From Pseudoramibacter sp. (GTDB lineage Bacteria; Bacillota; Clostridia; Eubacteriales; Eubacteriaceae): a stretch of DNA of 64,000 bases. Below are positions 29,756-34,500 of this stretch, one piece after another (position 1 is the first letter of the stretch; the number at the start of each line of letters is the position of its first letter). The stretch is taken from positions 1,054,001 to 1,118,000 of the forward strand of contig NZ_JAKVLT010000001.1 in NCBI RefSeq assembly GCF_022484225.1, given 5' to 3'. The translations under genes were made by a program, and so were the position numbers. The notes under the pieces were generated by a model. It had not been told where the DNA came from. It ran no database searches and saw nothing but the letters and a program-made list of their open reading frames with translations.

Positions 29756-29928
29756 GATTCAAGGGTATTGTGATCATTTTGTGATGTTTTCTTTAGTTTA
29801 GATTAAAATGCTTTCTTAATTTTTTAAGAATTGGGGAACACCTTTGGGGATTTTTTCTCATTTTGGTATAATGAGACATATTAAAATCATTCTAAAAAAC
29901 ATTTTGGGGAAGGATTAGGGACTTATTG

Positions 29929-31437
29929 ATGAAAAAATTTTTGACCGCTTTGCTCACGGCGGCACTGGCATTAACCGTCGGTCTGCCGGTTTTCGCCCAG
30001 TCGTCGAGCAGCACCTTTGCGATTCAGTACGACAGCAATGACATGCACTACGTGCCGGCGGCGACGGCGAAGCTCGCCAACGCGGACGACAAATTCATTC
30101 TCTACTGCATGAATGCAGATCTGCATTGGCCGCACCAGGAAGCGACCATTGCCACGGAAGTGCCGGACTACACCGAAGACGCGAGCTATTTAAAGGCGTC
30201 GGACTTCAAGAGCACTGACGATTACAACGCCTTTATGCGTAAGCTCAAGATCATTCTCTACGCCGGCTACCCCTACAACGGTCTGGGGCTGTACACCATT
30301 GAAAAAGACGGCCAGATCAGCGAAGCGGAATTCAACAAGCTCCTCGTTGTGCCGGACAGCATCCGCAGCGACTTCAAGGACATTCTCGGCGACACCACAT
30401 TCAGCTACAGCGACTGGACGTCGAAAAATACGGCGAATCTGAATAAGCTTGTGACTTTTGTCAATACAGTTTCCAGAGCCTATGTCTCCGATCCATCGGC
30501 GAAAACCGCCTCGGGCATGACCTATCAGGAAGTGTACGCCTCCAATTTCTTCCAGGCGGCGGAAGCGGTGAAAAACGCGGAAAGCAACAGTCAAACGCCC
30601 CTTGAAGAATACTCGTCGACCCACGGCCTCCTCACCGAAGCCAACGCCTACAAGGCGACTCAGTATGCGGTGTGGGAACTCATGAACGAATACGGGGTGG
30701 CGAACAACACAACTTTCAAACCTTACGGGAACTACTACCATCCTTTTGCAGATACTTTGTACGACACGGCCAACGGCAGCGATATGCAGATCCTGGACGG
30801 CAAACCAGATTCCAGCAAGATCAGCATCTCCGGCAACACGACGATGACTTACGACGCGACTCAGAAGAAATGGATCAGCGGCGATCTCACCGTTAACGAA
30901 CCGTCTAATTACAATGGCACTTATACCATTTCGGTACCGGACGGCGTGAGTGTCGAAACGACGAGCGGCGGCAATACCGTCAAGGGCGGAGAAAGCTTCA
31001 CGCTCGTTTCTGATAAGCCGACAAACGGCAGCGTGACTGTTTCGGCGAAGCTGGTCTGGATGGAAGCGCTGAAAGTCTACAGCCCGGTGAGCGCCGGCAA
31101 GACCAACGACAACAAAGGCTTCCAGCACATGGTGGGCACGGTGATGCACACCGCCACGGTTTCAGCTTCTGCGAACTTTACAAGCACACCGAAATCGGAC
31201 GAAACCAAGCCGGCGACCCCGTCTGACAGCAATAAAACCACCGGCGATACGACTAAAACGGCCGGTAAAACCGGCAGCACCAGTCAGCCGGCAGCCACAG
31301 CACCGGCTGACGGCAAGAGCCTGACCGCAGCCCTCACCGGCGACAACACCAATGTGACCCAATACGCAGACTGGTTTATCCTCGGCGGCCTCGGTCTCGT
31401 CGCGATGATCCTCATCCGCAAAAAAGCGATTCAGTAA
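29929..31437 (+). CDS. Thioester-domain surface adhesin
   Basis: 502-residue secreted protein from ATG 29929. The signal peptide is about residues 1-23 (cleavage near VFAQ). The N-terminal domain has the thioester pair of Gram-positive adhesins: cysteine C60 in FILYCMN and the TQxA motif TQYAVWEL with Q245. Such internal thioesters react covalently with host or surface amines. After beta-rich domains comes a Thr/Ser/Pro-rich stalk (about 425-465), then a C-terminal hydrophobic helix and RKK tail. The wall-sorting motif is not LPxTG; the residues before the helix read AALTGDN. No sortase is in the window. Confidence 0.8.
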   Translation: MKKFLTALLTAALALTVGLPVFAQSSSSTFAIQYDSNDMHYVPAATAKLANADDKFILYCMNADLHWPHQEATIATEVPDYTEDASYLKASDFKSTDDYNAFMRKLKIILYAGYPYNGLGLYTIEKDGQISEAEFNKLLVVPDSIRSDFKDILGDTTFSYSDWTSKNTANLNKLVTFVNTVSRAYVSDPSAKTASGMTYQEVYASNFFQAAEAVKNAESNSQTPLEEYSSTHGLLTEANAYKATQYAVWELMNEYGVANNTTFKPYGNYYHPFADTLYDTANGSDMQILDGKPDSSKISISGNTTMTYDATQKKWISGDLTVNEPSNYNGTYTISVPDGVSVETTSGGNTVKGGESFTLVSDKPTNGSVTVSAKLVWMEALKVYSPVSAGKTNDNKGFQHMVGTVMHTATVSASANFTSTPKSDETKPATPSDSNKTTGDTTKTAGKTGSTSQPAATAPADGKSLTAALTGDNTNVTQYADWFILGGLGLVAMILIRKKAIQ

Positions 31438-31455
31438 TCAGCAGTAAATTCAAGA

Positions 31456-31482
31456 GAACGGCTTAGGCCGTTCTTTTTTTGC
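31456..31482 (+). terminator. Intrinsic terminator, GAACGGC type
   Basis: AGAACGGC-TTAG-GCCGTTCTTTTTTT. Near-identical hairpins end the next two transcription units (33694-33720 and 34474-34500). Confidence 0.8.
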
Positions 31483-31655
31483 GCTAAATTGTGATAACAA
31501 CAAATAAGTTACCTACAATTTGAGTATAAATTGAAAAATAATAAATACCAAAATAATAAAAAGAATTATTAATTAAAATGAATAACATATTGCGTTATTA
31601 ATTGGAGGTGAATATAATATTAATTATAAGAATATTTAATTCATAAGGAGGCAAT

Positions 31656-33686
31656 ATGAAAAAAAGGCATTATCTGTTGAAACATATCACTTTGATCTGC
31701 GCCTGCTTCGCCCTTATTTTCGGGGGGGGGGGGGGGGTACTCTGTGCTAAAGCAGCCCCTCTAGGAAACAGCAGCACACAGGCTGCGACGGTTTATTTAA
31801 ATGGTCAAAGCGGGGACGACAGCCGGGACGGCTTGTCCAAAGACACGGCAGTCAAAACCTTTGAACAGGCGAAAAAACTAGCGGCAGCCAACGCTAACAT
31901 CAAGACCATTGACGTAACCGGCACCGTGGCCTTGCAGGGAGAAGTTACTTTAAAAGGGACTCAGGCGATCGTCAAGCGGGACCCGGCCTTTAACGGCAAT
32001 TTGTTCACCGTGGCGTCAAATGTTACCTTATCGGATATTACGATCGACGGCGGCGGCAGCGCGGCCCCGAGCGATGCCGGCGCGCTGATTAAGATGACCA
32101 GCGGCACATTGAATATCAAAGACGGCACGGTGCTCCAGAACAACCGCAATGGTGACAGAAAATCTGATACTTTTGCAGAAGGCGGCGCTGTTTTTGTACG
32201 CGCTGGCGCCAATGATCAGGCAGTAGTTAATATGACCGGCGGCACAATCTCCGGCAACTCCGCAAATTGGGGCGGCGGTCTTTACATAGGCAGCGGCACC
32301 TTTAATATGACCGGCGGCGTCATTGAAAATAATACTGCCGAAGGTCAGGTTGACTTTACAGGTTTTGAAAACTGCGGTGGCGGGGTCGAATTGAATGGTC
32401 AGGACCGTGAAGCGGTGATGAACTTTAGCGGCGGCACCATTAAAAACAACCGTTCAGATGGCAACGGCGGCGGCATTTCCGTTGGGACATCTTTCGCAGC
32501 CAATCATGCCATTACGCTTAATATGACCTACGGCGTTGTCGAAGGCAATACCGCAGGCAAAGCCGGCGGCGGCATTTTTGTTCAGGCCGGTTATCTCAAT
32601 CCGGCAACCTGGGGTGTGGCCAACGTCACCGGTGGAAAAATCCAGAACAACCAGATGAATGCCAAGAAAGATACGCCGAATACGGCTTTCGGCGGCGGCG
32701 GTATCTATGTCAACGGTTATGCACACCAATATAAGGGCACTTTCCATGACGGGGTGTTAAACCTGAAAAACGCGGTGATTCAAAATAACCAGGCGGCCTA
32801 TGCCGGCGGCGGCTACGCGGCCTGCCCGTCTTCAGACACCCATATTTATGTGACGGACGGCGCAGCGTTCTTAGGCAACCAGGCAAAATCCGCCAAGGCC
32901 ATTTATATTCTGGCGAGCAGCAAGTACGGCGCGCACAGCGGGTCTCCGGCTTACACCATTTCTCCGTCCATGCTCGGCGGCAGCCCTTACAACTGGCAGA
33001 ACGACGACGGCACCGAAGTGGCGCTGAATCACCTTGAAGGAACGCTGGACGCCAATAAAGACGAAAGCATTGCTTTGAGCACAGCGAAAACAAGCGATGC
33101 CAAGGCGGCGAAACGCGCGAAAGTCTGGATCACCGGGAACACCTCGACGACCCGGGGCGGCGGCATCGGGACCAACGGCACCGTGAATATCGGCACCGAA
33201 CCGAAAACGGAAATTGCCGTGAAAGTCGACAAGAAATGGGCAGACGCGAAGAAAGCCCATCCGGATCAGGTGACGGTGCAGCTCTACCGCGCCGTGAAAG
33301 GCGAAGCGCCAGAGTACGTCGGCCCCGAAACTGTGAGCGCCGATCAGAACTGGACCATGAGCTTCAAGAACCTGCCCACTGAAGATCCGGACGGCAATCC
33401 CTACACCTACACGGTGAAGGAAAAAGCGGTGGACGGCTACACACCGACCATCAGCGGCGATCAGACCAAAGGCTTTGTGATCACCAACACGCCGACACCA
33501 AAGAAACCGGCCACACCAGGCAATAAGACGACGACCACACCGTCAAAAACCCAGCCGGCCACCAGCAAGAGCGGTGTCAAAACCGGCGATCCGACCCAGG
33601 CCATGGCTTATCTGATTTTGATGGGCGCAGCTCTGGCCGTGCTCGCAGGATGCTCTGTTTATCAGGCAAGAAAAAGAAATGATTAA
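31656..33686 (+). CDS. Beta-helix/CnaB surface protein with a poly-G tract in its signal peptide
   Basis: 676 residues from ATG 31656, ribosome binding site AAGGAGG. Residues 1-35 are a signal peptide whose hydrophobic core is followed by five glycines encoded by an uninterrupted G16 run (31722-31737). Residues about 60-470 are right-handed parallel beta-helix repeats (GGTISGNSANWGGGLYI and VIENNTAEG types). A CnaB domain follows at about 525-610 (VKVDKKWADAKK, LPTEDPDGNPYTYTVKE). The end is a Thr/Lys/Pro stalk, SGVKTGDPTQ and a hydrophobic helix with RKRND tail, a sortase-type anchor of the xVKTGD kind. The current tract length keeps the gene in frame. Confidence 0.82.
   Translation: MKKRHYLLKHITLICACFALIFGGGGGVLCAKAAPLGNSSTQAATVYLNGQSGDDSRDGLSKDTAVKTFEQAKKLAAANANIKTIDVTGTVALQGEVTLKGTQAIVKRDPAFNGNLFTVASNVTLSDITIDGGGSAAPSDAGALIKMTSGTLNIKDGTVLQNNRNGDRKSDTFAEGGAVFVRAGANDQAVVNMTGGTISGNSANWGGGLYIGSGTFNMTGGVIENNTAEGQVDFTGFENCGGGVELNGQDREAVMNFSGGTIKNNRSDGNGGGISVGTSFAANHAITLNMTYGVVEGNTAGKAGGGIFVQAGYLNPATWGVANVTGGKIQNNQMNAKKDTPNTAFGGGGIYVNGYAHQYKGTFHDGVLNLKNAVIQNNQAAYAGGGYAACPSSDTHIYVTDGAAFLGNQAKSAKAIYILASSKYGAHSGSPAYTISPSMLGGSPYNWQNDDGTEVALNHLEGTLDANKDESIALSTAKTSDAKAAKRAKVWITGNTSTTRGGGIGTNGTVNIGTEPKTEIAVKVDKKWADAKKAHPDQVTVQLYRAVKGEAPEYVGPETVSADQNWTMSFKNLPTEDPDGNPYTYTVKEKAVDGYTPTISGDQTKGFVITNTPTPKKPATPGNKTTTTPSKTQPATSKSGVKTGDPTQAMAYLILMGAALAVLAGCSVYQARKRND
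31722..31737 (+). repeat. Homopolymer G16 tract, candidate phase-variation site
   Basis: Sixteen consecutive G residues within the signal-peptide codons of the beta-helix protein. Gain or loss of one base shifts the frame after residue 25 or so and would abolish secretion. Tracts of this length are very prone to strand slippage. Confidence 0.85.
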
Positions 33687-33693
33687 ATAAATA

Positions 33694-33720
33694 CGGAACG
33701 GCTTAGGCCGTTCTTTTGAT
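33694..33720 (+). terminator. Intrinsic terminator, GAACGGC type
   Basis: GGAACGGC-TTAG-GCCGTTCTTTT, following the beta-helix protein stop. Confidence 0.75.
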
Positions 33721-33753: not shown

Positions 33754-33782
33754 TTGACGTTTTGTTTAAATATGCGTATAAT
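33754..33782 (+). promoter_or_regulatory. Promoter of the type III toxin-antitoxin locus
   Basis: TTGACG at 33754-33759 and TATAAT at 33777-33782, 17-base spacer; start expected near 33789, just before the RNA repeats. Confidence 0.75.
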
Positions 33783-33788
33783 AAAAGT

Positions 33789-33962
33789 ACAAAAAGTGCT
33801 TGCACTTTAACAGTGAGTCTCTCTCAGCTCTATAAATGAGAAAGTTAGAAAGCGGGTCTCTCTCCACCCTTATCGGAGTAAAGTTATCAGAGCGTGTTTC
33901 GCAGCGTTATAAATGCGAAAGTTAACTAGGACAAGTGTATTCTTACACTTGTCCTTATTTTT
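33789..33962 (+). ncRNA. ToxI-like antitoxin RNA repeats with terminator
   Basis: Three degenerate tandem units, 33810-33847, 33848-33886 and 33887-33924 (38, 39 and 38 bases), each ending in AAAGTTA. Units 1 and 3 carry the same fold: TCTCTCA or TTTCGCA, a 10-base loop ending TATAAA, then TGAGAAA or TGCGAAA. Unit 2 keeps the stem less well. A hairpin terminator (GGACAAGTGTA/TACACTTGTCC, 33929-33954, plus T run) separates the repeats from the toxin gene. This repeat-terminator-toxin layout is that of type III systems, in which the RNA is cut into units that bind and inhibit the toxin. Confidence 0.8.
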
Positions 33963-33975
33963 AAGGAAAAACAAT

Positions 33976-34464
33976 ATGTCTATTCGATTTTATGAAGTGA
34001 ATACAGATTATATTGATTATTTATCACGCCATGAGAAGCATCTATTTCGCAATAGCAAACCCAATCAGCGCAACACAAGAAAATATGTTGGCATTGTAGT
34101 TACGGTTCACGAGTTAAATTATTTTATTCCGTTATCGTCATATAAGCCAAAACACAATAGAATGCGCGAAATGGTGGATTTTTTAAAGATTCGCGATTAT
34201 GCTGTGTTAAATATTAATAATATGTTGCCTGTACCGGAAGGCTTTTATACACCTCTCAATTTTGCAAAAATAAAAGACAAGCGATATCAGCAGCTATTAC
34301 AGGCAGAATACCGTATTATTAAATCAAGACAGGAATTAATCAGAAAAAATGCAAAAATTGTTTATAATCGTAAAACGGACCCTAATGATCATTCAGCATT
34401 ATCAAAGCGTTGTAATAATTTTCTGTTATTAGAACGGCTGGCCAAATCATATCAGGCCAAATAA
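33976..34464 (+). CDS. toxN: Type III toxin, ToxN/AbiQ-family endoribonuclease
   Basis: 162 residues from ATG 33976 with AAGGA at 33963-33967; an upstream frame extension would start inside the RNA repeats. The N-terminal FYEVNTDYIDYLSRHEKHLF, the central KYVGIVVTVHELNYFIPLSS and KPKHNRMREMVDFLKI, and the NINNMLPVPEG segment follow the ToxN/AbiQ pattern, in which the protein cleaves cellular and antitoxin RNA. The codons are AT-rich. Such systems act as phage defence by abortive infection or in plasmid maintenance. The RNA repeats and terminator directly upstream make the assignment strong. Confidence 0.87.
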   Translation: MSIRFYEVNTDYIDYLSRHEKHLFRNSKPNQRNTRKYVGIVVTVHELNYFIPLSSYKPKHNRMREMVDFLKIRDYAVLNINNMLPVPEGFYTPLNFAKIKDKRYQQLLQAEYRIIKSRQELIRKNAKIVYNRKTDPNDHSALSKRCNNFLLLERLAKSYQAK

Positions 34465-34467
34465 TAC

Positions 34468-34500
34468 AAAAAAAAGAACGGCATGAGCCGTTCTTTTTTT
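34468..34500. terminator. Bidirectional terminator between toxN and the symporter gene
   Basis: A-run, AAGAACGGC-ATGA-GCCGTTCTT, T-run; works on both strands for the converging genes. Third member of the GAACGGC hairpin set. Confidence 0.8.

Follow-up and report, generated by a model that had tools for sequence, protein, structure and literature searches.

Does a run of 16 guanines inside the coding sequence for a signal peptide act as an ON/OFF switch for the surface protein behind it? The run lies at positions 31722 to 31737 (plus strand) of the window, meaning the whole 64,000-nucleotide stretch of Pseudoramibacter DNA analyzed here (positions 1054001 to 1118000 of its contig). An earlier note on this DNA had described 16 uninterrupted G bases that encode five glycines in the signal peptide of a 676-residue protein, and a direct count of the sequence gave exactly that number; its description and coordinates both held. 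The tract is part of an ORF with an ATG start at 31656 to 33686 (plus strand; here gene 1), predicted to encode a 676-amino-acid (aa) surface protein on the basis of ORF translation, Pfam, a C-terminal motif found by inspection and a structure model. The start codon is preceded by a Shine-Dalgarno sequence, AAGGAGG, and its spacer (31643 to 31655, plus strand; read directly). The signal peptide, MKKRHYLLKHITLICACFALIFGGGGGVLCAKA before A, is encoded by 31656 to 31763 (plus strand), with its cleavage site placed by inspection. Beginning at codon 23 in phase 0 and spanning codons 23 to 28 in the h/c region, G16 encodes five Gly residues and supplies the initial G of a Val codon (GTA); these glycines follow the hydrophobic core (TLICACFALIF) and precede the probable cleavage site, VLCAKA before A.

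The effect of tract length on the reading frame was computed directly. At 16 G gene 1 is in frame (ON), as the note had stated, and readthrough is obtained at 7, 10, 13, 16 and 19 G (3k+1). At all other lengths between 8 and 20, and so after a change of one or two G, translation stops after 28 to 36 aa. The claim that a change of three would alter the signal peptide also held: one Gly is gained or lost, and nothing more. In the ON frame 3' of the tract, an ATG first appears 146 codons in; closer alternative starts are TTG or GTG codons 59 to 118 codons in, without SD-like sequence before them. Restart at any downstream start would leave the protein without a signal peptide, a functional consequence that we infer from the reading frame.

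Next, the features of the gene 1 protein were characterized. Its sole Pfam match was Cna_B (PF05738) at residues 522 to 612 (E = 3.2e-21); no beta-helix family and no Gram_pos_anchor were reported in that search, and a search of NCBIfam gave no match. Repeats of the pattern NMTGG.I.NN.A..GGG probably form a parallel beta-helix across about residues 64 to 420. The structure model, based on an alignment of two rows only, had a mean pLDDT of 53 overall and was reasonably confident only at about residues 70 to 310, where pLDDT was mostly 70 to 95 (block means up to 95) and regular short strands were formed. The best PDB matches of the model were beta-helix proteins, at weak significance (rhombotarget A, E = 0.012), and a PDB sequence search found no relative. 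Of the label "beta-helix/CnaB" given in the earlier note, the CnaB part is therefore secure, while the beta-helix part draws on the repeats and on a model that is confident only in part. By inspection, the C-terminus contains VKTGD at residue 641, a hydrophobic stretch and a basic tail (RKRND), an arrangement that appears to resemble a sorting signal. Three sortases are encoded in the genome, away from gene 1.

To ascertain how unusual the tract is, G runs were counted on both strands of the whole genome, a single contig of 1,965,548 bp. Runs of exactly 7 G occurred seven times, and G8, G9 and G16 once each; inside the window, the next longest G or C runs have six bases. Runs of at least 16 G are expected at 1.4e-4 per genome by a second-order estimate, which is crude, and G16 is plainly not background. 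Only two runs of at least 9 G occur in the 1.97 Mb, both on the coding strand and both in signal peptides of surface-type genes. The single G8 sits in frame inside obgE. Among five genomes of the genus there were 14 runs of at least 8 G. Five of these lay no further than codon 65 in genes for secreted or surface proteins, at three independent loci; others were in housekeeping genes, obgE among them, or in intergenic positions. G8 alone is therefore no proof of a switch, and the broader proposal that any run of at least 8 G marks one was rejected. The gene 1 tract, in turn, has the homopolymer length of poly-G contingency loci (8 to 9 G or more) and their 5' coding position, where a change of frame leads to an early stop. 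Loss of mismatch repair was considered as the cause of the tract and rejected, since mutS was found in all five genus genomes; a mutator state is thus neither needed nor seen. G tracts slip in repair-proficient bacteria too.

The surroundings of gene 1 were then analyzed. A terminator-like hairpin with a T-rich tail lies 3' of the upstream gene (31455 to 31474, plus strand) and another terminator-like hairpin lies 3' of gene 1 (33695 to 33714, plus strand), so gene 1 is probably transcribed alone, as a monocistronic unit. A promoter scan 5' of gene 1 gave weak matches only, and no promoter is therefore claimed; an Rfam search around gene 1 gave nothing above gathering scores. The upstream neighbor (29926 to 31437, plus strand) encodes a thioester-domain (TED) surface protein of 503 aa without a G tract and is kept at the site in two other genus genomes, G004 and G002. 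In G004, the TED gene and a dctA-type transporter gene are 77 bp apart, whereas here gene 1 and toxN lie between them. Gene 1 is therefore accessory in this genome, and by this comparison gene 1 and toxN make up one accessory insertion, flanked by the TED surface gene on one side and the dctA-type transporter gene on the other. The toxN gene, next after gene 1, belongs to a type III toxin-antitoxin locus (33754 to 34464; ToxN, PF13958, E = 2e-46) with a strong promoter-like site (TTGACG-17-TATAAT), 41-nt imperfect repeats at 33807 to 33847 and 33884 to 33924 that probably represent the antitoxin RNA, and a terminator-like hairpin at 33928 to 33955. The hairpins at 31455 to 31474, 33695 to 33714 and 34469 to 34500, which end successive genes, are near-identical (GAACGGC..GCCGTTC plus a T run). 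No tract-bearing orthologue of gene 1 was found; among homologues with a convincing signal peptide, the nearest is in G003, with 50 to 54% identity, a different genomic site and no tract. A scan of GTDB contigs with gene 1 returned distant relatives only (Dielma and a Clostridia MAG) and no second strain of the locus, and IMG/VR scans with both tract flanks gave no match.

The other run of at least 9 G in the genome provided a second case. This G9 (contig positions 815776 to 815784) lies in the signal peptide of another surface-protein gene (gene 2), which starts with the ATG at L045:3703. The frame downstream, an ORF that runs as far as L045:4759, closes with a GVKTGD.TQAM type tail, as in gene 1. 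At G9, gene 2 is out of frame and stops after 32 aa; G8 or G11 would give 351 to 352 open codons. Its orthologue in the sister species G002 has G8, is open over 348 aa and has an identical signal peptide. The two copies have no substitutions in the 74 coding bases 5' of the tract, with 86% aa identity in the mature parts; given this unchanged flank, tract length has changed faster than the flank. Gene 3, common to G002 and G004 and with no match in the genome under study, encodes 1288 to 1292 aa with a signal peptide and a C-terminal Gram_pos_anchor match (LPXTG-type anchor). Its tract directly follows the signal peptide, with G8 and an open frame in G002 and with G9 and a stop after 64 aa in G004. 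The G8/G9 differences in genes 2 and 3 rest on single assemblies. A further G9, in G004 (L150:1841-3023), separates a ParB_N domain from an N6_N4 DNA methylase; with G8 the frame would be uninterrupted, and the locus may encode a phase-variable methyltransferase.

The frameshifted copies of genes 2 and 3 were compared with their ON orthologues. After the tract, the gene 2 OFF copy has 324 codons without a stop and a dN/dS of 0.21, and the gene 3 OFF copy has 1228 codons without a stop and a dN/dS of 0.18; in both, all gaps are in frame, and dS is near 0.37 to 0.39. Intact sequence and a dN/dS of about 0.2 argue that these are not decayed pseudogenes. The OFF state of genes 2 and 3 would accordingly be recent or intermittent, although its reversibility is not proven thereby.

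The best-supported account of the tract, its frame effects, its genome-wide rarity, the surface features and the one-G frame flips in genes 2 and 3 is that G16 functions as a slipped-strand, simple-sequence contingency switch for phase variation of the surface protein, as the earlier note had proposed. We give this reading, in which slippage in this strain, reversibility and an effect at the cell surface are predicted, a probability of roughly 0.8. The G16 locus is known from one genome of the species, and the one-G differences come from genes 2 and 3. These two orthologue pairs, which differ by one G and by frame while their ORFs are intact and constrained, and the position of the sole other run of at least 9 G in a surface-protein signal peptide both strengthen the proposal. 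In the suggested mechanism, the replication polymerase would slip on the G run and add or remove one or more G. With 3k+1 G, the signal peptide would stay joined to the mature surface protein (ON); at other lengths, translation would end after 28 to 36 residues and no protein would be exported (OFF), because the sequence offers neither a suitably placed start codon downstream nor another signal peptide. Steps of three G would change only the number of glycines in the signal peptide. The population would then be a mix of cells with and without the CnaB/beta-helix protein. Since at least two further surface-protein genes of the genus have the same device, ON and OFF states could be combined independently in cells.

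Runs of such length are generally slippery for polymerases. Transcriptional (or ribosomal) slippage might therefore operate instead, with RNA polymerase inserting or skipping G so that every cell mixes mRNA frames, which would tune dosage without switching cells. Under such slippage, genes 2 and 3 would be rescued even at G9, a possible reason why those copies have not decayed, but slippage of this kind does not predict one-G differences in DNA between orthologues. We consider it improbable as the sole explanation, and it is compatible with slippage at the DNA level, to which it could add. Slightly less probable still is a homopolymer miscall, in which a G-rich tract exists, its assembled length is wrong and the frameshifted G9 copies are in truth G8. 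In each of the three cases in the genus where G9 shifts the frame (gene 2 here, gene 3 and the ParB-methyltransferase gene in G004), the frame would be open at G8, and a published G11 of Bifidobacterium breve was mostly G12 on recount (PMC9187656); for these reasons wrongly called lengths are a genuine worry for the G9 alleles. However, miscalling leaves unexplained both the presence of long runs in surface-gene signal peptides and a G16 that is ten bases above any other G run in the window; the assemblies of different genomes would each need an error, always in one kind of gene, and obgE has its G8 in frame. Least probable is a neutral relic, an accidental expansion in dispensable accessory genes without selection for switching, which would suit the absence of gene 1 and toxN from the G004 site but not the tracts in three separate surface genes of the genus, the purifying selection on OFF copies or the lack of other runs of at least 9 G in this genome.

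The slipped-strand switch was then placed in a wider taxonomic context. At the order level, runs of at least 10 G were present in 15 of 67 genomes, and none of the other runs that could be placed was in a signal peptide. At the class level, 31 of 393 genomes had runs of at least 12 G. The earlier description of poly-G loci as unusual in anaerobic Firmicutes thus stands as a statement of frequency and fails as an absolute. About one locus per genome was read in the class survey, a sample in which two further G runs touch signal peptides. In G334, from another family of the class, G12 lies within the signal peptide MFLRSKKILAAMVMMAVMLENPLFMPIFGGGG (near 1418-2540 of extracted locus L170), out of frame with the following Beta_helix_3 protein, which would be open at 11 or 14 G; this arrangement appears to repeat the design of gene 1. 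In G423, the n-region immediately preceding a clear signal peptide contains a G12 that is in frame with an ATG start (locus L158, minus strand, near 1535). Two other loci contained G10 runs that are either possible switches or assembly errors: one breaks an ABC-transporter ATPase at its signature motif (G005, L096 near 1502-1511) and one breaks an acyltransferase-like membrane protein (G061, L087 near 1502-1511).

These results make it plausible, and on balance we favor the idea, that the genus has a small "surface phasome" of independently switching cell-wall proteins, driven by poly-G tracts within the signal peptide or directly behind it, a device that would have evolved repeatedly, on beta-helix surface proteins, within the class (e.g., G334) and would provide Neisseria-like surface diversification in Gram-positive gut anaerobes. 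Phase variation in Clostridia has mostly been described as DNA inversion, an example being Clostridioides difficile CwpV (PMC2784873). If the proposal is true, a poly-G contingency set would represent a second, independent route to clonal surface diversity in these anaerobes, which is relevant to phage receptors, adhesion and immune recognition. For annotation, it would mean that "frameshifted" copies are probably OFF alleles rather than pseudogenes.

Among known systems, gene 1 would work like gonococcal pilC (Neisseria pilC1/pilC2), where the protein is turned on and off by homo-guanine tracts located in the region for the signal peptide (PMC5354566), a change from G10 to G9 turning pilC1 from on to off (PMC5231331). 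Both have poly-G inside the signal-peptide code of a surface protein, an adhesin in the case of PilC, with ON/OFF control by frameshift that in gene 1 is predicted. PilC is a Gram-negative type IV pilus tip protein, whereas gene 1 encodes a Gram-positive CnaB/beta-helix protein and has a longer tract, and no sequence relation was seen between them (Pfam reported only Cna_B in gene 1). In Neisseria Opa, a repeat in the leader-peptide code also sets ON/OFF (PMC5354566), but it is a CTCTT pentamer in a Gram-negative organism rather than poly-G.

Among Gram-positive bacteria, B. breve UCC2003 bbr_0113 and bbr_1889 have G10 to G12 between the Sec signal and the body of a sortase-dependent surface protein, and one G sets ON or OFF, as measured in vitro and in mice (PMC9187656). 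B. breve is likewise a Gram-positive gut anaerobe, but it belongs to the Actinobacteria, and its tract is in the leading gene of a pilus operon that encodes a sortase of its own. Gene 1, by contrast, stands alone between two terminator-like hairpins, followed by toxN and with sortases elsewhere, and its tract is inside the signal peptide. In Gardnerella, tracts of at least 8 are associated with LPXTG/InlB-repeat surface proteins, and length variation has been seen; tens of tracts occur per genome, about 70% of the G/C ones upstream of genes (PMC11287997), whereas here each genome has two or three, at the 5' end of the coding sequence. In Cutibacterium acnes, the adhesin genes PPA2127 and PPA1880 carry a G/C tract at their 5' end, with strain differences in length that cause frameshifts (PMC3224659), and 54 variable tracts have been reported (PMC4746626). 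That species is also one of the Actinobacteria; its tracts lie in the coding 5' end or the promoter, and their variation follows clades and was judged slow. No description of cell-wall proteins switched by poly-G was found for Eubacteriaceae or related Clostridia, which is weak evidence given limited literature coverage. The mechanism itself is thus already known; what appears to be new is its probable use on cell-wall proteins in this Eubacteriaceae genus, together with a similar case, on a beta-helix protein, from another family of the class.
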